Assembly (NCBI GenBank): GCA_021325235.1
Contig: JAJPHN010000040.1
Span: 1-64,000, forward strand
Direction of reading: 5' to 3'
Origin: Terriglobia bacterium
GTDB lineage: Bacteria; Acidobacteriota; Terriglobia; Bryobacterales; Bryobacteraceae
DNA: 64,000 nt
In this document: piece after piece, positions 1,242-16,075 of the stretch
Position numbering within the stretch: the stretch's first letter is position 1
Layout of the letters: every line of letters starts with the position of its first letter
Translations under genes and position numbers: made by a program
The notes under the pieces: model-generated
What the model was told of the DNA's origin: nothing
Database searches by the model: none
Seen by the model: only the letters and a program-made list of their open reading frames with translations

Positions 1242-1952
1242 ATGACTGGAGAAGAAGGAAAACCAGCTAGCGCGCTTGGAAGCGCGGTGGGCAACGCAAA
1301 GAGCCCATGTCAGAACTGCGCGGGCGGCCCGAGCATCAAATTCAGCGGCATGTTTTTATTCGAACCGAAGGGGAACTGCGTGGTGGTGCACGTTCCGCAA
1401 GTGGCTTCGCACGGATATCTTTTTAAGCATCCGGGCAGCAAAAAACCAATTGGCATGGAGCGGAACGATGTGTGGAGTATTAGCTGTCACACGCCGCAAC
1501 AAGGCGATATCAGTTCCCTTACTTGTCCAGAACTCGACTCGTTCACAGGTCTCGAGACGAACCTTCGCTACTGCCAAATCATAATGCCGTTGCCCTGTTG
1601 CGTCAAGCCGATTCAGCCCGAACAGGTGAGTATTCAAGGGCCCGTAAAGCAGACTGGCGACAATACTATTTATCACTATTTTGTGCTTCACTATTCAGCG
1701 GATTCTGTGCTGACAGTGACATCCGATTCCGGTTGCAATCTGGCGTTGTCAAAAGGGGCATTGGCCAAGTTTCACGCAGAACCGATGTCAGGGCATGGGA
1801 GGGCTGCGCCTGGTCACGTCCAATGTGCCTTTAGAGAGCTGAGCCGCATGTGCCGTAAGTCGGATACTATAACGGTTCATCAACCGCTGAAAATGAAGGC
1901 GACCGGAGCCCAGGTCGCGCACTGCTTTTCGATTAAGGCTTCCAACACATGA
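1242..1952 (+). CDS. unknown protein, first of a tandem paralogous pair
   Basis: This 236-residue protein has no recognised family. The start at ATG 1242 is chosen because AAGGAG at 1231-1236 lies five bases upstream. No signal peptide or membrane span is apparent. It shares a colinear set of motifs with the next gene: FSGMF near the N-terminus, GPVxKTG in the middle, a FHAEP/FYAEP segment, an F(R/N)EL(S/C)RM segment and a near-identical end, GAQVAHCFS. The pair therefore arose by duplication. Its stop overlaps the next start (ATGA at 1949-1952), so the two are probably translationally coupled. Base composition is less G+C-rich than the core genes to the right, suggesting acquisition. It converges on the CHAT gene. 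Confidence 0.8.
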   Translation: MTGEEGKPASALGSAVGNAKSPCQNCAGGPSIKFSGMFLFEPKGNCVVVHVPQVASHGYLFKHPGSKKPIGMERNDVWSISCHTPQQGDISSLTCPELDSFTGLETNLRYCQIIMPLPCCVKPIQPEQVSIQGPVKQTGDNTIYHYFVLHYSADSVLTVTSDSGCNLALSKGALAKFHAEPMSGHGRAAPGHVQCAFRELSRMCRKSDTITVHQPLKMKATGAQVAHCFSIKASNT

Positions 1953-2644
1953 TTCAGGTTTACTTCAGCGGGATGTTCTCGTTCACCGAGCAGGAAAACA
2001 CAATCGTTGCGCGCGCGCCGATTGTCGGGCGGTCGGTTGGTTCTCAGATGTCGGACCACGTATATCTGTGGGGCACGCTGCAGACCAGCGGCGGCGATCC
2101 GACGAGAGATTTGAAACAAATTGCACTCGGCGAAACCATCCAGTTATCGCGTCCATCACAGGGCGGAAAACGTGGGCTGTTATCCAAGCTGAACATTCCC
2201 TTACTCAAAGGAGCTTCCGGCGCGATCGATACTACCCTTCAGTACTATCAGGTCAGGCTGCCGCTGCCGGATGATGCACAAACAGCGCGCGACGTGCAAG
2301 TGGATCTTAACGGACCGGTACAGAAAACGGGTCGCGTTTCGATACAAATACTCGCCTGTTTTACTTACGGCAACCTCACGGTAATGCCGGATACTGGAGC
2401 ATCATCTTCTTTGCCCGACCAGGCGCTCCATTTTTATGCGGAGCCGTCGTGCGGAGATGAAATGAAGCCGCCCATTGTTTTTAATGAACTGTGTAGGATG
2501 CACAAGCTCAGCACATCCATAATTGTGGACAATCCGGTGGAACCCGTTCACGTGGGAGATCTGGACCAAATGAGCCTGAGCGAACTGAAGGGCTGCCAAC
2601 ACGGCGCCCAAGTCGCACACTGCTTCTCCGTCCGGGCGAGCTGA
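1949..2644 (+). CDS. unknown protein, second of a tandem paralogous pair
   Basis: This 231-residue protein has no recognised family and begins MIQVYFSGMFSFTEQENT. It aligns end to end with the preceding gene (motifs FSGMF, GPVQKTG, FYAEP, FNELCRM, and the C-terminal GAQVAHCFSVRAS). The extra residues lie before the conserved C-terminus and include GDLDQMSLSELKG. It looks like a soluble beta-rich protein, with no signal peptide or membrane span. The ATG overlaps the upstream stop by four bases. Its end is 11 bases from the convergent end of the CHAT-domain gene, so the two transcripts probably overlap at their 3' ends. A functional link to the CHAT protein is only a guess from position. Confidence 0.8.
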   Translation: MIQVYFSGMFSFTEQENTIVARAPIVGRSVGSQMSDHVYLWGTLQTSGGDPTRDLKQIALGETIQLSRPSQGGKRGLLSKLNIPLLKGASGAIDTTLQYYQVRLPLPDDAQTARDVQVDLNGPVQKTGRVSIQILACFTYGNLTVMPDTGASSSLPDQALHFYAEPSCGDEMKPPIVFNELCRMHKLSTSIIVDNPVEPVHVGDLDQMSLSELKGCQHGAQVAHCFSVRAS

Positions 2645-2655
2645 ATTTCGCCACC

Positions 2656-5600
2656 TCAAGTGCCCGAGCCGAACAACACAAAAGCCGCCCAATAGAAGGG
2701 GTGTGCCGTCGAGGTATCGGCGCGTAATTTCTCCATCGTCTTCCCCAGCGCAACTGAGGGCGACATGCCGGATAAGAGAAGCCCGTAAAACGAATCCACG
2801 GTTCGCGCGGCCACCGTGGAATCAACCGGCCAGCGCGTCGCTAAAACATAAGGAATCCCGCACGCGATAAACGGTCGAACTAAACTCTCAGCACCGACGA
2901 CCTGCTCGGCAGAATTTCCCGCAGTGGAGCAAGCGGAAAGCACCACCAACCGGCAGCGTGGTAAGGCGTCGCGAGTGACAGTGAGCGGATTCGTTTTGCC
3001 GTTTCCAGTGGGCAATTCCAAGATAGTCTGCCCATGGCGCACGGCCGAATGGCCGGCGTAATGAATCAATTCCGTCTCACGCAGTATCCGTGGCAGATCC
3101 ATCCATGGTGCCCCGCCACCGCTGAATACGGTCGAATGCACGAAATGTTTGCGGAACGAAGCCTCTTCCAGACGCAAATCGCTTAGCGGGCGCTCGCCGG
3201 GCTCCATAGGAGGCATGAGTAAGGTGGCGCGGCTTGCCGGTCCAACCCCGGCCAAGTGCTCGCTCACGTGGTTGCGGTAATTGAAGCCAGGCGACAACAC
3301 GATCTGGAAGCGCTGCGATAAAAGTGCATGGCGAGAATCCTGGAGCACCTCCCACGGCAGCGACCAGAGTGCGCCTTCCGCTTCGATCGTGATCGGCCCG
3401 GCGGCCGGGAGCCAGTTCTCAACCGGAGCGATCAGGTCCGAGTACAAGGCTTGACTTTCCGAGCGAAGCACTTCGTTGGATATCGAAGCATCCGACGCAT
3501 GTTCGGTCAAACGAGCAGCTAGCAACTGGATTTCCGCCGGCTGGGCCGGAGCGGTAGCGACGTGTATGCCGGACGCGCCATAAACCCAAATCCTCAGCGA
3601 CCGGCCCAGCGTGCTATACGACAACACCGTTTCCGCGCGATCGCAGAGTAGCTGCTGCCCCAACTGCCGCTCGCCGTGCCAGGGCTCCCAGGCGATCGAG
3701 GCCGCGGGCGAGTGCTCTGCTCGCGAGTTCCCTCGCATTTGCTCGAGGACGGCAAGCGCTCCATTCTTCTCCCCACGTTCCCATAACGAGGCGGCCAGGT
3801 CGCGATGCGCGGCCTCCAGTGTGCCCATCCATCGCACGCGGTCCGCTTCGGAAGCAAGAGAAAGAAGCCCGGCATTGGCAAAGCTGATGAGCGTACGAAG
3901 CGCGGACTCGCGCTCACTCGCGCGATGATCGATACGAGCAGCTTCCGCTGACGCTTGCATCCAGTTGATCGCCAGCGGAACGTTTTCGGCGCGATGTACG
4001 AAGGCGGCCACCTGGCTGAGCCGAGTGCGTGCGATCTGCGCTCGCCGGTCCAGCAGATTGAGACGCGCGATGCCGATCTGCACCTCAGCGCGATACGAAT
4101 TGTCGGCTTGCTCTCCTTGGGAAAGTTTCTCGGCGCGTGCAAAAGCCGCCCGCGCTTCCCGCCATTCGCCTGCATCGAGTGCTGCGCTGGCGCGTTCGAT
4201 TACCGCAAATTGCTGAGCGAGCCGGTGTGAAGTCGCGGCCGCGCGCAGCTCCGCCTCCCTCGCCATCGCCAAGGCAATCGCCGGTTCGCCTTCTTCGCGG
4301 GCTGCGAGCGACAGGTCCATGTAGAACTGATACGCCCGCATGGGCCGGTGCCATCCGGCCCACCACCGATCCAGCCCGGCGACGTTCAGGTTCCAGAGTT
4401 GCTCTGAATTCCCCGCCGCATGCTCAACCGAAGCAAGGATCCCCTGGGCGCGCAGGCTGAGTTCCGGATAATTACCAAACTCTGCGAGCTTCGAGGCCGC
4501 TAGAGCATTGGCGCGCGCTTCGTCGAATCTCTCCATGGCCGCCTGGCAGGAGGCGATCTCCTCGCGAACAAAGCTGCTCAGCCAGACATAGCCTCTCCTC
4601 TCGAGTACAGGCGCCAGGTTCCCTCCGGTTTGCGCGCATTCGAGATCACGGACAGCATGATGCCACAAATAGAGTTGCTCAGCCTGGGCGCGCATCAGCC
4701 CGGGAGTGTTGTGCGCAGCCGTGAACACGCGGAGTGCGGTCTCCAGCGTCCTTTCGCCCTCCCGGAAGTCGCCGATTGCGTCCGCTTCGATGGTTTTGCC
4801 CAGAGCCACCAAGCCCGGTTCCATGGAAGCGTTTCGCGAGGTGGTAAGGATATCGCGGAGCCAGCGGTCGTGATGCGCCGTTTCCAGAACGGAAGCCAGC
4901 TTCATCGCTGCGCTCGCGGACCTGTCTCGCTGCGGCCAATGGACGAATACGGAGTCGGTAGCGGCGGCCACATCACGGTTGGCCAAATCCTCGCGATTCA
5001 CGGAATTCAATCTTCGCTTCCGGCCCCCGATCGCAGCGAGGCGCTTCTTGGCTTCGGCCGCCCAAGGCCCGTTCGGGTCGATCTTGAGATAGGTCTTCCA
5101 TTCCTGCTCGGCTGCGCTGAACAGATCCAAGCTTTCGAGAGCGACGGCGCGGTTAAAACGGGCGGTCGCGTTTCCCGGATCGCGCGCAACTACCTGGTTC
5201 AGACGCGACAGCGCGGCCTCGCAATCCTTTTTCTGATTGGACATTATGCAGCGCTCGTAATATGCGGAGGCCAGATCGATATCCAGTGATGTGTTTCCAG
5301 GCTCGAGGCGCCCGGCCTTGAGAAGAACTGCGATCGCCCTGTCCGGCTTGGAGGCAAGCAGGAACGCGCGCCCTTGCCGCTGCATCCACTCCGGATCATC
5401 AGGATGTTGCTTCAGTTGGCGAGAGATCACCGCCCTTCCTTCATCGAGCGAGGGACTCTCATCGGCCGCGCTTCCGGACCTTGTTGTGCGCGCCAGTGGT
5501 GCGGCCGGCGCACCTTCGAACCGCATTTCGAGAACGCGATTCTCACGATAGGCTTCGGCTAGATGAGAGTCCGCACGGCGGGCGGGATTGAGCCAGACAA

Positions 5601-6150
5601 AAGCGGTTAGCGAAGCAGCCAAGGCGGCGATCGCTCCGCCGGCAACCTTCCAGAATCTGGTCGGGCTACGGACGGGTACGCGAGCGAGTCCTGACGCGGA
5701 GGCGGCAGCAAGACGGTAGGCAAGTTCACGCCGGTCCGCGGAACGCGCGCTCGGTAGATCTTCGAGAAAGCGAATCTCTTCTGAGGTAGGCTCATCGCGA
5801 AACGCGGCCAGCTCTCTTTTGAGGACTTCTGCGCAGGCGTCACATCTGGCGGCGTGCTCGCGCAACTCGCGGCTCACGGACAGGGGAAGTAATCCGGCAA
5901 CCAATCCTGCCCAGTTTTCGGTCATTCGAGGGCATTCGATCTTCATACCCGCCCGCAAACCTCGGAGAACGTTCTGCGCCTCTTTCTGGGCTTCGAAGAG
6001 CTCACGGCAAGTTACGCATCCGGCAAGGTGCTGCCAGACAGGAAGATTACGGCCGCCGTTTTGCTCGCCCGGCACTTCTCCGAGAAGCGCATCCACCGCC
6101 TCATCGGAAAGATGGGCCGCCCCATGCAGGTTTCGCTCCTCATCTGTCAT
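2656..6150 (-). CDS. zinc anti-sigma / TPR / CHAT-protease fusion protein
   Basis: This 1,164-residue protein starts with two zinc anti-sigma (ZAS) signatures, H-x3-C-x2-C at H41/C45/C48 and again at H99/C103/C106. A hydrophobic span follows at about 168-188 (AGGAIAALAASLTAFVWL), then a long helical region of TPR-like repeats from about 235 to 800. The last 300 residues are a CHAT (caspase-like) peptidase domain with candidate dyad His1034 (HYAGHS) and Cys1074 (LSACST), and the DSF..LL..G.S...AL segment near the end. The predicted topology is cytoplasmic zinc domains with TPR and protease outside the inner membrane, or the reverse. Its start overlaps the stop of the upstream ECF sigma gene (ATGA), so it is very likely that sigma factor's regulator. 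Proteolytic activity is inferred from the intact dyad. Confidence 0.9.
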   Translation of the reverse strand: MTDEERNLHGAAHLSDEAVDALLGEVPGEQNGGRNLPVWQHLAGCVTCRELFEAQKEAQNVLRGLRAGMKIECPRMTENWAGLVAGLLPLSVSRELREHAARCDACAEVLKRELAAFRDEPTSEEIRFLEDLPSARSADRRELAYRLAAASASGLARVPVRSPTRFWKVAGGAIAALAASLTAFVWLNPARRADSHLAEAYRENRVLEMRFEGAPAAPLARTTRSGSAADESPSLDEGRAVISRQLKQHPDDPEWMQRQGRAFLLASKPDRAIAVLLKAGRLEPGNTSLDIDLASAYYERCIMSNQKKDCEAALSRLNQVVARDPGNATARFNRAVALESLDLFSAAEQEWKTYLKIDPNGPWAAEAKKRLAAIGGRKRRLNSVNREDLANRDVAAATDSVFVHWPQRDRSASAAMKLASVLETAHHDRWLRDILTTSRNASMEPGLVALGKTIEADAIGDFREGERTLETALRVFTAAHNTPGLMRAQAEQLYLWHHAVRDLECAQTGGNLAPVLERRGYVWLSSFVREEIASCQAAMERFDEARANALAASKLAEFGNYPELSLRAQGILASVEHAAGNSEQLWNLNVAGLDRWWAGWHRPMRAYQFYMDLSLAAREEGEPAIALAMAREAELRAAATSHRLAQQFAVIERASAALDAGEWREARAAFARAEKLSQGEQADNSYRAEVQIGIARLNLLDRRAQIARTRLSQVAAFVHRAENVPLAINWMQASAEAARIDHRASERESALRTLISFANAGLLSLASEADRVRWMGTLEAAHRDLAASLWERGEKNGALAVLEQMRGNSRAEHSPAASIAWEPWHGERQLGQQLLCDRAETVLSYSTLGRSLRIWVYGASGIHVATAPAQPAEIQLLAARLTEHASDASISNEVLRSESQALYSDLIAPVENWLPAAGPITIEAEGALWSLPWEVLQDSRHALLSQRFQIVLSPGFNYRNHVSEHLAGVGPASRATLLMPPMEPGERPLSDLRLEEASFRKHFVHSTVFSGGGAPWMDLPRILRETELIHYAGHSAVRHGQTILELPTGNGKTNPLTVTRDALPRCRLVVLSACSTAGNSAEQVVGAESLVRPFIACGIPYVLATRWPVDSTVAARTVDSFYGLLLSGMSPSVALGKTMEKLRADTSTAHPFYWAAFVLFGSGT

Positions 6151-6908
6151 AACGAAGAGCTGGTCTGCTTTCCTTTGGCGATCGGCCTTGTCGCCAATTT
6201 CGTGCGTAATTGCCTTGCGAGCCTGTGGATCGTGCTCTCCACACCTTTGACCTGTAATCCGATCCCGGGCAGCGCGGCGATGGCTTCTGCTGTGAAGCCG
6301 TGACGGAAATAAAACCAGAAGATCTGCTTATCGCGATCCCCGGTTTCGCCGCTCACGCACTGGTCGAGATGAGATTCGATTTCGCCGATCAAAATTCGCC
6401 GGTGCAGGTCCGCGTCGGTCCCGCTTTGAGCTATTGGAAATTCGTCCGTGCTGCAGGTTTGCGATAACCCTCCGTGGCGCGCAGCCATCTCTCGCTTGAA
6501 ATGGTCTCGCACCACGTTCGCGCTTACAACTTTCAGGAACGCGTAGATTGAATTCTCCGATTCGAGCTTGAAGCCGCGCAGAATCGCGCAGCGATCTTTG
6601 CACAACTTCAGCAGTGTCTCCTGAATCAGGTCGTCGACGAGTTCAGGAGAGGCAGCATGCCATTGGCGTACGTGGCGGAGCACCGAATTTCCAATCACCG
6701 CATGGTAGCGGCGGATGAATTCTTCCCATGCCGCCGGGTCGTGTTTTTCGACGCATGCTCGAACAAGGGCTTCCGTTCCAAGGCCCTGATAGTCCACCGA
6801 AGTAGCAACACTATACCACCTTTTTGCGCGTTGCTGAAAGTTTTGTCGCTGCATGGAAGGGAAGCCTCGGCTTACTTCGTTCAATGCAGTGCAAGCGATT
6901 CGCTTCAC
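6147..6908 (-). CDS. ECF-type RNA polymerase sigma factor
   Basis: Region 2 is seen in EEFIRRYHAVIG, LVDDLIQETLLKLCKD and FLKVVSANVVRDHFKRE. Region 4 appears as FWFYFRHGFTAEAIAALPG followed by VKGVESTIHRLARQLR. The longest frame starts at GTG 6908 (253 residues), but no convincing ribosome site precedes it. An internal ATG at 6854 or GTG codons further in could be the real start. The stop overlaps the start of the ZAS/CHAT gene by four bases, the usual layout of an ECF sigma and its membrane anti-sigma. The two probably form a signal-transduction unit. The sigma gene is divergent from the outer-membrane-like gene at 6974, a possible target. Confidence 0.88.
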   Translation of the reverse strand: MKRIACTALNEVSRGFPSMQRQNFQQRAKRWYSVATSVDYQGLGTEALVRACVEKHDPAAWEEFIRRYHAVIGNSVLRHVRQWHAASPELVDDLIQETLLKLCKDRCAILRGFKLESENSIYAFLKVVSANVVRDHFKREMAARHGGLSQTCSTDEFPIAQSGTDADLHRRILIGEIESHLDQCVSGETGDRDKQIFWFYFRHGFTAEAIAALPGIGLQVKGVESTIHRLARQLRTKLATRPIAKGKQTSSSL

Positions 6909-6973: not shown

Positions 6974-7612
6974 ATGCAGAAGCTAGTAAGTCGTATGTGT
7001 GTGCCGGCGATTGTAATCATGCTAGCGGGCTCGCTTTTTGGTCAACAAAATATCGGCTCGGAGGAAACGCCCTATTGGGCCATTCAGTCCGGCGGCGGTT
7101 TCATTGCAGGTGTCTCGCAGCTCGCAAATAGCCTGCAGAATCGCTTCAAAGTAAGCGGTTCGGGACCGTTGTTCGATGTTGGAATTACGCGCATGCATCA
7201 GGACGGCTCACCGAGCTTTTCCGTTGCATTTACCCGCCTCGCTTTCGACGGTCACGCGCGCGGAGTAGCCGATGAGTTTGCCGGTAACACATATAGCGGC
7301 AGCACCAGCCTGCCCGGCGTCATGGCAACAAAGTACTTCAATTTTATGCACCGCAAGCGATTCAGCATGGGAGTAGGTCTGGGAGCTGGCATCGGCCCGC
7401 AACTTACAGTGCATTACCGCACGACTTACGGAGGTGGCGAGATACGCCAGCGTAAATGGTCGCCGAACGAGCTGCCGGTTACGCCTTTGTTCGCCGTAAC
7501 TTATCGTGCCGACATACGCCTGAATCGCTATCTGACAATCGGCCCGTTCGCGGGCGTACAGGATGCGTTGCCGGTGTTCGGCGCGACGCTGCGCCTGGCG
7601 CTTGTGCGCTGA
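6974..7612 (+). CDS. secreted, probable outer-membrane beta-barrel protein
   Basis: This 212-residue protein has an N-terminal signal peptide (VPAIVIMLAGSLFGQ, cleavage probably after residue 23). The rest alternates polar and hydrophobic residues with glycine turns (FSMGVGLGAGIGPQLTV, TIGPFAGVQDALPVFGATL) and ends in LALVR, as expected of a small barrel. The start is fixed by GGAGGG at 6965-6970, just upstream of ATG 6974. It is transcribed divergently from the ECF sigma gene with only 65 bases between, so it may be under that sigma's control (inference). No specific family is recognised. Confidence 0.75.
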   Translation: MQKLVSRMCVPAIVIMLAGSLFGQQNIGSEETPYWAIQSGGGFIAGVSQLANSLQNRFKVSGSGPLFDVGITRMHQDGSPSFSVAFTRLAFDGHARGVADEFAGNTYSGSTSLPGVMATKYFNFMHRKRFSMGVGLGAGIGPQLTVHYRTTYGGGEIRQRKWSPNELPVTPLFAVTYRADIRLNRYLTIGPFAGVQDALPVFGATLRLALVR

Positions 7613-10624: not shown

Positions 10625-11821
10625 TCAGGCCGCGTTTTTCGCCGCTTCGGCGGCAGTTTCCTGTGGTTCCTCCATAGTGAAGTAAATGCGCTCCATCCAT
10701 TCCTGATTGAGTTCGATCATCCATGCGCTAACCAGGCGCAGGCAGGCCTGCTCATTGGGGAAGTTCCGGATGACACCTGTCCGTCGTTTGATTTCCTGGT
10801 TGGTTCGTTCCAACATATTGGTCGAGCGCATGCGTTTGCGATGGCGCTCGGGCAACTGGTAGACCGTCAGAATCTCCTCGCCGTGATCGTCCAGCAGCGC
10901 GGCCACTTTGGGCACTCGTCTGGCTAGCGTTTCGATCGTTTCCTGCAATGCCTTGCGTGCTGAAACCAGGGTAGGCGCTTCCGTGATAGACCTCAGCGCA
11001 GCCAGCACGAGTGCTTTGTCACGCGCAGCGGTGTGGTTGAGTACGTTGCGCACAAAATGCACCTGACAACGCTGCCAGAGCACGCCCTGGAAATGCCGGG
11101 CAATGGCTTTGCGCATTCCTTTGTGGTCGTCCGAGACCACATACCGCACGCCGCGCAGTCCGCGCCGGCTCAGGTCGCTGAACACTTCGCCCCAACTCGC
11201 TTCGCTCTCGGAATCCGACACCCACACCCCCCAGCACTTCCCGGAATCCTTCCGCGCTGATGCCCACCACGATCAGCACGCCCTGGCTGATCACTTCGCC
11301 GCGGCGCCGTACCTTCTCATACCGCGCGTCGATCATCAGATACGGATAGCTCTTCTCGAGCGCACGCTCGCGCCATTGGCGGATCTCCTCGTCCAGCTTC
11401 ATTGCCAGCGCCGAAACCTGGCTCTTGCCGATCTCCAGCCCACATAGCGCTTCCGTGATGTCCCGCACCTTGCGCGTGGAAACTCCTTCCACATACATCT
11501 GCATGATGGCCAGCAATAGTGCTTTCTCGCTGCGCTGATAGCGCTCGAACAGCTCCGTCTGGAACTGCCCCTCACGATCCTTCGGTACCAGCAGTTCCAA
11601 CTCTCCCACCCGCGTCTTCAGCACCCGCGGCTTGTAGCCATTCCGATGCCCACGCCGTTCGCTGGTCCGCTCGTAACTGTCGGCTTGCAGAAAGCTCGCA
11701 AGCTCGGCCTCCAGCACCTGCTGAACGACGCGCTCCACCAGCGCTTTCATCCCGTCGTCGCCAGATGCTGCCGCCTCTTGCCAGACCCCCTTTGTTCGCT
11801 ATCTGTGCTCTTGCGAGCCAT
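10625..11821 (-). pseudogene. IS256 (Mutator-type) transposase, two frame changes
   Basis: The start MARKSTDSEQ at 11821 matches the family. The body contains KALVERVVQQVLEAEL, RRGHRNGYKPR, VPKDREGQFQTELFERYQ and, after a shift, WVSDSESEASWGEVFSD to the stop at 10625. The DDE residues are visible: Asp in YLMIDARYEKV, Asp in YVVSDDHKG and Glu in NMLERTNQEIKRRT. The first shift is in a run of five G (coding strand, about 11788) and the second in a run of six G (about 11232). Adding one base to the first and removing one from the second restores a continuous protein of about 398 residues. Both being G homopolymers makes base-calling error a serious alternative. Confidence 0.85.
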
Positions 11822-13299: not shown

Positions 13300-13860
13300 C
13301 TAAATCGGCACGAGCCCGCGCCGGATCGCAATCGTCACCGCCTCAGTCCGAGTCGCCGCGCCCAGCTTCGCCAGAATCTGCGCAACGTGAAACTTCGCCG
13401 TGTGATCGGAGATCCCCAGCTTTCCCGCGATCTCTTTATTCGCCAGCCCGTCGGCCATCATCCGCAGCACTTGCCGCTCACGCTGCGTCAGCTCTTCCGG
13501 AATGTAGGCATTCTCGTCAGCAGCCAATCGAGCCGAATCCGGCAATCGCCGTTGAGCCTGCTCGCGCGTGAGCACAGTCAGATCCTGCGCCGCAGCCAGA
13601 ATCGCGGTCGCGAGCTCTTCGGCGGAAACATTCAACGGAAGCCACGCGCGCAGCTGCGCATCGAACGAAGGCGCGGCATGATCCGATAGCAGCACAACCA
13701 AGCTTTCGACCGGTGCCCGGCGCGCATGACCGATCACAACGCAAACGTCGGAAAACGCGGCGGGCGAATCGACGATCTCGATCCGCTCGTCCTGCGCGAG
13801 CAGGTCGGCGACGGCGCGTTCCTGCGTCCGGCTGTCGCCAATAATCCGAACGCGAGTCAT
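13300..13860 (-). CDS. LuxR/NarL-type regulator with degenerate receiver
   Basis: This 186-residue protein has a C-terminal LuxR helix-turn-helix ([20 protein letters not shown], then [18 protein letters not shown], about 123-180). The first 110 residues have the length of a receiver domain. However, the strand that normally carries the phosphorylated Asp reads DVCVVIGHA, with no Asp at the usual site, and the T/S and K sites are also unclear. It is thus likely to be a phosphorylation-independent regulator. Its start overlaps the stop of the upstream HtrA-like gene (ATGA 13857-13860), so the two are co-translated. Confidence 0.85.
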
Positions 13861-14783
13861 CCGCGCGACTGGCTTCGTTCCCTCACCTTTAACTCCACCT
13901 CAACCGGCTTTCCGCCTCGCAGGACAACGGCCCTGATCTCGCGTCCAACAATATCGCCGCGCAGTGCATCGTGCAGCTCGTCGATGTCGCCCATCCCTGC
14001 ACCGTTGAAGAGCACCAGAATATCGCCCAGCTGCAGACCAGCCTCGTGCGCCGGCGATTCCGGTTCCACGCTCAGGATAATCAGCCCGCGATTCTTCACG
14101 TCCTTGAGAGTGCTGCGCAGCTCATCCGGTAACCCTACGGGCTGCACACCGATTCCCAGATAGCCGCGCCGGATTCTGCCCTGCTCCAGAAGCTCGCGCG
14201 CAATTCGATCGATGGTCGTCATCGGAACTGCGATCGTGGAATGCCGCGAGAGCGCAGGTGTCGCCATGCCGATCAGCTTCCCGTCCGCCGTAACCGCTGC
14301 TGCGCCCGCCTGCGATGGATACAGATTTACATCCAATCGCAGGAAGCGATCCAGCGCTCCTCCGCGCCACATTTTTCGTCCCGGACCAGCCGCACCCAGC
14401 ACCCCCAGGCTCGCCGTTGCGCCCACATCGGCGGTCATTCCGACGATCAGCGTCAGCGAACCCGCTTCGAGCGACTCCGCGTTCGCGCTTTCGAGTACCC
14501 CGCCGCTCAGTCCCTCCGCTTTCAAAATCGCAAGATCGATTCCGGCTTCTCGCCCCAGCACCGTTGCGCGCACCTCGTTTCCGTCCGCGCTCTGCACCGG
14601 CACGCTGCCCTCGCGCCGCAAGGCATGATTAGCAACGGCGATCAGATCGTTCTTTAATTTGATGCCGCTCGTCACCCGGTAAGCTGCCGATTTCACGGCC
14701 ACAACCCCGGAAGCCGCTTCCTTCACGAGCGCTGTCAACGCGCGCGAGAACCCGGTCAACTCGTTTACAGATGAACCATTCAT
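13857..14783 (-). CDS. HtrA/DegQ-like PDZ protein with the catalytic Ser replaced
   Basis: This 308-residue protein is laid out like a trypsin-fold HtrA protease plus one PDZ domain (about 206-300: YLGIGVQPV, GLIILSVEPESPAHEAGLQ, GDILVLFNG). His53 (VANHAL) and Asp83 (GIDLAILK) of the triad are present. The GNSGG loop is replaced by PSQAGAAAV, leaving Ala159 where the nucleophile should be. No signal peptide is evident, so it may stay in the cytoplasm. ATG 14783 is chosen because it keeps the gene clear of the divergent moeA and is preceded by GAGG. A longer frame exists upstream to 14954. It probably binds peptides through PDZ and the dead protease fold rather than cutting them. Confidence 0.85.
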   Translation of the reverse strand: MNGSSVNELTGFSRALTALVKEAASGVVAVKSAAYRVTSGIKLKNDLIAVANHALRREGSVPVQSADGNEVRATVLGREAGIDLAILKAEGLSGGVLESANAESLEAGSLTLIVGMTADVGATASLGVLGAAGPGRKMWRGGALDRFLRLDVNLYPSQAGAAAVTADGKLIGMATPALSRHSTIAVPMTTIDRIARELLEQGRIRRGYLGIGVQPVGLPDELRSTLKDVKNRGLIILSVEPESPAHEAGLQLGDILVLFNGAGMGDIDELHDALRGDIVGREIRAVVLRGGKPVEVELKVRERSQSRG

Positions 14784-14860
14784 GACCTCACTATGAGCGT
14801 TTTGCGCCCTTGCTCGCATCCGCCTTTTGGGCAGGCGCCTGGAGCATGTAAAATTCGTAG

Positions 14861-16075
14861 GTGCGCGAAGCTCCGGCTCCCCCAGCGCTGCCCTTTGAAG
14901 AAGCGCGGCAAATCGTCGTTGATACCGTGCGCGCACTTCCGCATCCCCGGACAACCGAAACGGTTCCGCTCGATGCTGCTTATGGACGGCGTCTGGCTGA
15001 GGCTCTTCGCGCCGATCGCGATTATCCCGCTCTTCGCCGATCCCTCCGCGACGGTTTCGCTGTGCATGCTTCCGATCTCCCGGGCACTCTGCGCGTCCGC
15101 GGCGAATTGCGAGCCGGTGAGCATGCTGCTATCACACTCGGCCCGGGCGAGGCGATTGAAATCATGACCGGTGCACCGCTTCCCGAAGGTGCCGACGCTG
15201 TTGTCATGGTCGAGCATGTCACTCGCGTGAACGGCGATGTCAAAATCGACCGCACTGCCGAGCCGGGTCAGTTCATCAACGGCCGCGGTGCCGAAGCACG
15301 AGCCGGCACGGAACTGATTGCGCAAGGCACCAGGCTCGATGCGAGCCACATCGCAACTCTGGCCGGCGCAGGCCGTTCTTCCGTTCCGGTTTTCACCCGT
15401 CCGCGTGTGGCCATTCTTGCCACCGGCGATGAAATCGTAGCGCTCGACGAAGAACCGCAGCCGCACCAGATCCGCAACTCCAATTCGCACATGCTGGCCG
15501 CGCTGGTGCGCCGGGCGGGGGGCGAACCTTCCATCCTTCCCATCGCGCGCGATACCCGTGCCGCTCTCGATCCGCTGCTCGTGCAGGGTCTCGCCTCCGA
15601 CATGCTCGTGATCAGCGGCGGCGTGTCTGCCGGCAAGTACGATCTGGTCAAGCCTGCTTTGTGCGAACTCGGTGCGCTGTTCTATTTCGAGCGTGTCCGT
15701 ATTCAGCCCGGTCAGCCCGCGGTTTTTGGCACGCGCGCCGCCAAGCCGGTCTTCGGCCTTCCTGGGAATCCAGGCTCCTCGCTCGTCACCTTCGAGCTCT
15801 TCGCCCGCCCTGCACTCGAACTGCTCGCCGGTGAATCGGAGCCCATCCTGCCTCTGCTCTCTGCTCGCTTTGAAGCACCGTTTCGGCATAAGCTCGGTCT
15901 CACACGCTTCCTGCCCGCACGCCTCAGCGCCGATGGCCAGCATCTGCGCCACATTCCCTGGCAGGGATCGAGCGACATCCCCGCGCTCGCCCGGGCCAAC
16001 TGTTTTCTCGTTGCCGATCACGATCGTGAAAGTTGGAACACCGGCGATTCCATTCGTGTCCTGTCAAAGCCATGA
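14861..16075 (+). CDS. moeA: molybdopterin molybdenumtransferase MoeA
   Basis: This 404-residue protein inserts molybdate into adenylylated molybdopterin. Motifs are DGFAVHASDLPG near residue 65-76, IMTGAPLPEGADAVVM, the MoCF-binding domain with ILATGDEI and ISGGVSAGKYDL, then FGLPGNPGSSLVTFE. The length is normal for MoeA (about 400). It starts at GTG 14861. The stop overlaps moaC (ATGA at 16072). It heads a three-gene cofactor operon that would serve the NasA nitrate reductase encoded at 45.7-47.9 kb. Confidence 0.95.
   Translation: MREAPAPPALPFEEARQIVVDTVRALPHPRTTETVPLDAAYGRRLAEALRADRDYPALRRSLRDGFAVHASDLPGTLRVRGELRAGEHAAITLGPGEAIEIMTGAPLPEGADAVVMVEHVTRVNGDVKIDRTAEPGQFINGRGAEARAGTELIAQGTRLDASHIATLAGAGRSSVPVFTRPRVAILATGDEIVALDEEPQPHQIRNSNSHMLAALVRRAGGEPSILPIARDTRAALDPLLVQGLASDMLVISGGVSAGKYDLVKPALCELGALFYFERVRIQPGQPAVFGTRAAKPVFGLPGNPGSSLVTFELFARPALELLAGESEPILPLLSARFEAPFRHKLGLTRFLPARLSADGQHLRHIPWQGSSDIPALARANCFLVADHDRESWNTGDSIRVLSKP

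Follow-up and report, generated by a model that had tools for sequence, protein, structure and literature searches.

A probable transmembrane anti-sigma factor of the DdvA kind with TPR and CHAT domains, and its family in Acidobacteriota

What a caspase-like domain is doing on an anti-sigma factor is the question raised by a locus in a 64,000-nucleotide stretch of a Terriglobia bacterium (assembly GCA_021325235.1, contig JAJPHN010000040.1, positions 1 to 64,000), hereafter the window. Here one gene joins two zinc anti-sigma (ZAS) motifs, a hydrophobic segment, tetratricopeptide repeats (TPR) and a CHAT domain, and it follows directly on the gene of an extracytoplasmic function (ECF) sigma factor. 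An earlier note on this DNA had described the arrangement and suggested that the built-in protease could cut its own chain or other targets. We find that the chain is very probably a transmembrane anti-sigma factor of the kind of DdvA from Myxococcus xanthus, and we put at about three in four the probability that the locus as a whole is explained as a DdvA/DdvS-type signalling unit with a periplasmic TPR-CHAT sensor. The features of the chain are the following, where fractions of 38 refer to the family members described below.

2656-6150, reverse strand: fused gene, 1164 amino acids without internal stop; probable single-chain transmembrane anti-sigma factor with two zinc anti-sigma motifs, transmembrane helix, juxtamembrane motif, TPR superhelix and CHAT
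6007-6030, reverse strand: first zinc motif, H41-x3-C45-x2-C48, present in 30/38 compared chains and hence optional
5833-5934, reverse strand: second zinc motif, C73-x25-H99-x3-C103-x2-C106, always kept, membrane-proximal
5590-5652, reverse strand: transmembrane helix, about residues 167-187; hydrophobic segment in 38/38, helix in the model
5476-5565, reverse strand: juxtamembrane motif LAxAYxxxRxxExR...AxYxPxxxxRG, residues 196-225; the window chain has S225
3727-5454, reverse strand: TPR superhelix, about residues 233-808, with Cys505 and Cys535
2659-3633, reverse strand: CHAT domain (PF12770), about residues 840-1164, with H1034/C1074

The description that the earlier note had given of the 1,164-residue chain, i.e. 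two H-x3-C-x2-C motifs, a membrane span, TPRs and a CHAT domain with His1034 and Cys1074, was confirmed, and the combination of sigma factor, zinc anti-sigma, TPR and CHAT was supported, with a strongly conserved catalytic pair. The note had also called for a search for other architectures of this kind. Such searches were made among 60 relatives, 399 genomes of the class, the genome_contigs collection and 396 genomes of the phylum, and the first three gave 38 distinct fused chains, all from Acidobacteriota, which run from head to CHAT in one open reading frame (ORF) after removal of identical copies. Loci that were partial, split or frame-broken were left out (L062, L076, L077, L084, L092, L093, L101 and the split L040 and L043). 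The closest pairs among the 38 share 82, 78 and 74% identity. Each of the 38 is immediately preceded on its own strand by an ECF sigma gene. Among the 399 genomes of the class, at least 26 have a fused chain beside a sigma gene (a lower bound, counted by hand over the best 30 places). That the fusion is an accident of assembly was considered and rejected, as 38 distinct fused chains argue against it. At least one cultured species, Granulicella aggregans, holds a member (locus L097). A single-sequence scan of genome_contigs gave no relatives; the alignment-based scan of the same collection found them. CHAT proteins as such are common, since 168 of the 170 genomes of the window's own bacterial family have one of some kind; the genome of the window has four CHAT loci, and the zinc motifs are in the window locus only.

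The zinc head is marked above all by its membrane-proximal motif. H99, C103 and C106 are present in 38/38 chains and C73 in 37/38, the spacing from C73 to H99 being x25 in the window chain and mostly x24 among the relatives. The window head shows the classical zinc anti-sigma ligand pattern C/H-x25-H-x3-C-x2-C. The zf-HC2 model (PF13490) scores 10 bits on it (E 0.98), below the cut-off of 22.2, so the zinc motifs rest on their letters and their conservation; the cut-off was passed by none of eight other heads scanned, and the single-zinc relative L171 passes it with 34.6 bits. A profile of the head, compared with PDB sequences, gave 7 matches up to E 10, all weak (E 0.019-0.43). Among them are the anti-sigma factors RsiW, ChrR (twice) and the DdvA head (8rlz_A), as well as 3hug_B, which we take to be an anti-sigma factor, and two unrelated proteins, one of them top-ranked. 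With the second zinc motif alone, ChrR comes first (E 0.016), and 3hug_B and the DdvA head again match weakly.

The hydrophobic segment behind the head has a 19-residue core in 38/38 chains (mean Kyte-Doolittle value 1.4-2.7), and the 25 residues flanking it carry a net charge of about +3.3 on the N side and about +0.9 on the C side. It is followed by the juxtamembrane motif, in which R205 and R210 are conserved to 97%, R224 to 89% and the G at position 225 to 86%. A profile of residues 160-372, i.e. from the membrane helix through this motif into the TPRs, found 19 places in 18 of the 170 genomes of the bacterial family (E at most 1e-20), and 19/19 have CHAT in the same ORF or within about 2 kb downstream. 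This result has some built-in bias, because the chains used to make the profile were CHAT-fused and three of them belong to the 19 places. Three of the 19 places (L045, L211, L212) show no recognised sigma gene or zinc motif.

Among the TPR models, TPR_19 scores above its cut-off on the window chain, and TPR_16 and the others below theirs. Cys505 and Cys535, in adjacent TPR helices, are conserved in 38/38 chains. The model puts Cys505 at the fourth position of helix 502-518 and Cys535 at position four counted back from the C-terminal end of helix 522-538, a predicted placement that suits a contact within an antiparallel hairpin, and the conserved pair fits an oxidising compartment.

The CHAT model PF12770 matches residues 899-1162 with 112 bits (cut-off 24). 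His1034 and Cys1074 are each present in 38/38 fused chains, as is W1107; H1030 is kept in 36/38, and H1150, P1151 and W1154 of the HPxYW segment in 94-97%. Over a wider set of aligned CHAT ORF pieces (180 that cover both positions, copies included), 171 keep both His and Cys; the nine exceptions are seven from Gemmatimonadota with Tyr or Phe in place of His, one with Ser for Cys, and the misaligned L189. The seven loci with Tyr or Phe at the His1034 position are L109, L116, L118, L133, L135, L141 and L145.

The chain alone was modelled with AlphaFold2 from an alignment of 17 rows, with a mean predicted local distance difference test value (pLDDT) of 79 and a predicted template modelling score (pTM) of 0.69. 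The model shows, in order, the zinc head, a helix at 167-187, a TPR superhelix up to about residue 808 and then CHAT; residues 221-229 fall below pLDDT 50, and 138-173 and, within CHAT, 984-987 and 1079-1088 are poorly predicted. In Foldseek the best PDB matches are both DdvA, 8rot_A (E 4.6e-18, TM-score by target 0.61, 17% identity) and 8rw5 (E 1.3e-17), followed by human separase and by Csx29 (E 3.7e-12), a protein not known to have an anti-sigma head or membrane helix. DdvA is thus the best fold match, and it is also the best CHAT match, coming first for a CHAT-only profile against the PDB (E 3.1e-13). With a whole-chain sequence profile it is found at E 5.9e-19, where five designed TPR proteins rank above it. 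Unlike the CHAT-only profile, one built from the second half of the chain did not match DdvA among the PDB sequences.

DdvA of M. xanthus has an ECF sigma partner, DdvS (PMC4374960). Its structures are 8ROT, 8RW5 and 8RLZ (released 2024); DdvA is titled a transmembrane anti-sigma factor, and the title of 8rw5 names a dimeric structure. Like the window chain, it has an H-x3-C-x2-C head, TPR and CHAT; the aligned DdvA head has one zinc motif as against two in the window chain. The window locus has the adjoining ECF sigma gene and the same order of zinc motif, one helix, TPR and CHAT. The earlier note had held that no mechanism was described for such a combination; this did not stand, since DdvA/DdvS is a characterised anti-sigma/sigma pair of the same architecture with solved structures. 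No account of CHAT-bearing anti-sigma factors of Acidobacteriota was found among the literature matches listed, in a search of which no part was aimed at the partner gene X described below. We judge that what is new is the family with its partner gene X and not the architecture.

The zinc head has to meet the sigma factor in the cytoplasm and the chain has only one helix, from which we infer that the head is cytoplasmic and that TPR and CHAT lie in the periplasm, as we take them to do in DdvA. The head, mainly through its membrane-proximal ZAS motif with the first motif as an auxiliary, would hold the ECF sigma factor at the inner membrane, and the single helix would lead across the membrane to a periplasmic sensor formed by the TPR superhelix and CHAT. 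A periplasmic cue would alter the TPR-CHAT part and free the sigma factor, which would then turn on its own promoter along with, probably, a small regulon. This geometry differs from what the earlier note had implied. With the membrane between head and CHAT, the sigma-binding domain is out of the reach of CHAT; a cut by CHAT in its own chain could be made in the periplasm only and would have to be followed by an intramembrane cut.

The working model for such a release is that of RseA/DegS/RseP, where a membrane anti-sigma factor is freed by proteolysis; unlike there, the candidate first protease would sit on the anti-sigma chain itself. In this model CHAT would be an active periplasmic cysteine peptidase, comparable to the site-1 protease of RseA-type systems, acting in cis or between partners. 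A natural cut site would be the conserved R-G segment about 35 residues past the helix, which is disordered in the model, and an intramembrane cut of the M50 type would follow. The genome has four M50 proteases, which is unspecific, all 14 control genomes having M50 as well. That CHAT is catalytically active we consider fairly probable, a view favoured because His and Cys are fully conserved; that it cuts its own chain is a tentative proposal, with the odds somewhat against it. If true, a membrane anti-sigma factor would have its first protease, a fold of the caspase/separase type, built into its own chain in place of the separate site-1 protease of textbook systems. A different arrangement is discussed for the ECF54 group in a review (PMC8999054): there, too, an ECF sigma factor has CHAT proteins in its gene neighbourhood, and proteolysis is discussed as the means of control, with no anti-sigma factor involved, whereas in the window locus CHAT sits on the anti-sigma factor.

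The system extends beyond the sigma gene and the fused gene, as two more genes (1158-2644) lie past the 3' end of the fused gene, on the opposite strand. They belong to a family that we call X.

1242-1952, forward strand: X1, ORF open from 1158, probable ATG at 1242; X profile E 8e-41; no Pfam match
1949-2644, forward strand: X2, paralogue of X1; X profile E 9e-30; no Pfam match

X1 and X2 share 31% identity (E 5e-23). The X profile was iterated from seven genes downstream of CHAT in other loci and gathered 48 of 4075 unique ORFs, i.e. 44 distinct genes, both window genes included; these ORFs come from CHAT neighbourhoods only, so position is shown and not exclusiveness. The X genes adjoin the CHAT gene or another X gene that does, and in L101 and L043 they are at the far end of the gene set or inside it. 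By hand count an X gene stands beside 31 of the 37 assessable fused genes, five of the 31 being seeds of the profile; L070 could not be judged and was left out. The profile detected no X beside the fused genes of L064, L068, L086, L090, L097 and L098.

A 16-row X profile, searched in the 399 class genomes, gave 23 matches in 17 genomes, at least four of which had supplied rows of the profile. Twenty of the matches are beside a CHAT gene, one is at a contig end (L196) and two (L197, L198) have no CHAT in the stretch read; the X of L197 has a leader like that of the twin-arginine translocation (Tat) pathway. The recall of this search is about half: 23 class genomes have X beside a fused gene, and in 12 of them it failed to find X. 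In the 396 phylum genomes the same profile matched G000 and G194 only, so it does not show X outside the class. Four further sigma loci from the juxtamembrane search (L207, L209, L213, L214) have X in 4/4, where L208, identical with L092 (a record that stops about 73 bases past CHAT), and L210, largely L101, were not counted as new. L199, L200 and L201 also carry X.

The features of X were surveyed in 39 of the 44 distinct genes; L060_543, the first X of L091, and four genes whose ends are uncertain were left out. In 39/39 one of the last 30 residues is a Cys; export signals were called in 15/39, and three more are borderline Tat-like, together about half, which favours the DdvA/DdvS-type reading. 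Comparisons with Pfam, NCBIfam and PADLOC gave matches for single members only (E 0.012 or weaker), and the best PDB matches were at E 0.34 for sequences and E 0.026 for folds. The model of X1 (mean pLDDT 74) is mostly beta and has no PDB fold match under E 0.001. X may be a dedicated partner, a substrate or an output of the system.

The same chassis occurs in split form and with other heads. In other classes of Acidobacteriota a single zinc motif with a sigma gene is found on a transmembrane-TPR-CHAT chain in L170, L171 and L180, and less clearly in L189, and the genes are split in L176 and L181; split forms within the class of the window are L040/L095, L043, L062, L200 and L201. The TPR-CHAT halves of L040, L043, L062, L176 and L181 have an N-terminal hydrophobic helix of their own. 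In L172, L173, L174, L175, L177 and L178 the chassis carries a zinc-free head with the motif YLLG...DELIxxY and stands with a diverged sigma-like protein. Four of these six sigma-like proteins were compared with Pfam and gave weak sigma matches, one of them above the cut-off; TIGR02937 matched weakly in 6/6 and above its cut-off in 0/6. The genes that follow the six zinc-free-head chains are below the threshold of the X profile. As a side observation, a sigma model from type III-E CRISPR systems matched weakly, far under its cut-off, in 2/6 of these loci.

A tree was made from a selection of 55 C-terminal parts. It has one starred set with 36 rows, in which are found the two-zinc chains without exception (22/22), 10/13 one-zinc chains and 4/7 split chains, and the split L043, of the same class, is outside it. 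A starred branch separates the zinc-free group from the other rows. The split forms take 5 changes on the tree, at least 2 of them forced by starred branches, and therefore splitting or fusing occurred more than once. The window chain is on a long branch with no well-supported neighbour and in no starred set; a placement near its own family was rejected, as the tree does not resolve it.

A further locus type was seen in four loci of the same genus and family (L044, L049, L053, L054), in which a small one-zinc membrane anti-sigma gene is followed by a gene for a protein of 190-300 amino acids and then by TPR-CHAT. These middle proteins form their own family, with two copies in L054; they were considered as X and rejected, being mutually similar yet unmatched by the X profile. 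In L201 (11278-14678) the split sigma, anti-sigma and TPR-CHAT genes are followed by two X genes, a small gene and a second sigma-like gene. In L202, whose contig breaks off before the sigma end, X is likewise followed by a gene of similar length.

Several observations weigh against the proposed picture. The C-side flank of the helix is basic too, with 3.7 Lys/Arg among 25 residues, and the charge rule therefore draws no sharp line. Split systems retain the juxtamembrane motif in their CHAT-free half as well, and several of them have it in both halves; it may serve the pairing of split halves rather than cleavage. No export signal was found in 21/39 X proteins, including both window X, which is a poor fit to a periplasmic substrate. 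Finally, the CHAT domain of DdvA keeps the aligned His and Cys and differs at other residues that are conserved in the family of the window; by analogy, signalling of this kind may not need catalysis.

This last point leads to an alternative that we consider rather unlikely, namely that CHAT is a pseudo-enzyme or structural cap and that TPR-CHAT is a ligand- or force-sensing receptor, the sigma factor being released by conformation or by other proteases. The divergence of the solved relative at several CHAT positions suits a receptor, as does the dimeric state named in the title of 8rw5. It is opposed by the full conservation of H1034, C1074 and W1107 in the 38 chains and that of HPxYW in nearly all, which points to strong selection on an active-site-like region.

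It is also conceivable, and in our view unlikely, that CHAT is active and that its target is X or another partner and not the anti-sigma chain. The position of X, beside most assessable fused genes and beside a CHAT gene in 20 of the 23 search matches, and its constant C-terminal Cys speak for this, and there is a precedent: Csx29 of Craspase cleaves Csx30, the inhibitor of CASP-sigma (PMC10028731). Craspase (Cas7-11, Csx29, Csx30 and CASP-sigma) resembles the window locus in that a sigma factor is controlled from a locus with a TPR-CHAT protease, and differs in being RNA-guided and made of separate proteins. On this reading the two would share one logic, with the genes of protease, sigma factor and substrate at a single locus. 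The missing export signals speak against X as a target of a periplasmic CHAT, and so does the failure to detect X in 6 of the 37 assessable fused loci and, by threshold, after the six zinc-free-head chains. That the hydrophobic segment is no membrane helix, or that the chain is inverted, so that cytoplasmic TPR and CHAT would cut the zinc head or X directly, would agree with the lack of export signals in both window X and 19/37 others and is nevertheless very improbable in view of the hydrophobic core in 38/38 chains, the hydrophobic helices at the N termini of several split TPR-CHAT halves and the titling of DdvA as a transmembrane anti-sigma factor.

We therefore keep to the DdvA/DdvS-type unit with a periplasmic TPR-CHAT sensor. 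In its fullest version it would be a three-gene periplasmic stress switch in which the chain's own site-1 protease cuts the R-G segment, X is a ligand carrier, inhibitor or substrate, and the chassis is re-used with other heads across Acidobacteriota; as a whole, this version seems to us improbable. Even without a role as a protease, DdvA, the single solved example, becomes a family with conserved and testable features, i.e. a constant zinc motif, a constant catalytic pair, the juxtamembrane motif, head swapping and the undescribed partner family X.

The sigma gene and its control region have the following features.

6147-6908, reverse strand: ECF sigma ORF as listed; probable true extent 6147-6797, GTG start, 216 amino acids
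6857-6883, reverse strand: candidate autoregulatory ECF promoter TGAACG-N14-TTCCCTT, upstream of the sigma gene

The sigma protein scores 45.1 bits with TIGR02937 (cut-off 42.9), which places it in the sigma70-ECF superfamily; the Pfam sigma models score under their cut-offs on it. The four-base overlap with the fused gene (ATGA) is as the earlier note had reported. The note was also right about the gene, and its start at 6908 was not upheld. The sigma proteins of the relatives align from about residue 38 of the listed ORF, and the start is probably the GTG at 6797, which is favoured because the relatives begin near there and a promoter-like site is found at 6883-6857; inspection by eye showed no clear ribosome site at this GTG.

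A site of the form AAC(G/A)-N15-N(C/T)CCTT is found upstream of 11/40 sigma genes (mean 0.2 and maximum 3 in 300 shuffles), a comparison that is optimistic as the motif was derived from the same 40 regions on which it was scored. The controls gave 0/40 on the reverse strand and 0/40 in coding parts. The site is absent in the other 29/40, and some of the 11 carriers are mutually related. The exact pattern occurs twice in the genome, as does a reversed control pattern; the one site beyond that of the window lies within an unrelated ORF, which is chance level, so that no regulon is claimed. With 2 mismatches, the pattern is found less often inside the window than by chance.

Next to the sigma promoter, a divergent gene (6974-7612, forward strand) has a signal-peptide-like start and no Pfam match, and it could share the control region with that promoter. 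Farther away, two overlapping ORFs at 10625-11750 on the reverse strand resemble what we take to be one two-frame transposase of the IS256 type. At 13300-14954, likewise on the reverse strand, an ORF that we take to be a trypsin/PDZ-like protease is followed by a presumed regulator with a LuxR-like end, and these two ORFs overlap by 4 bases.

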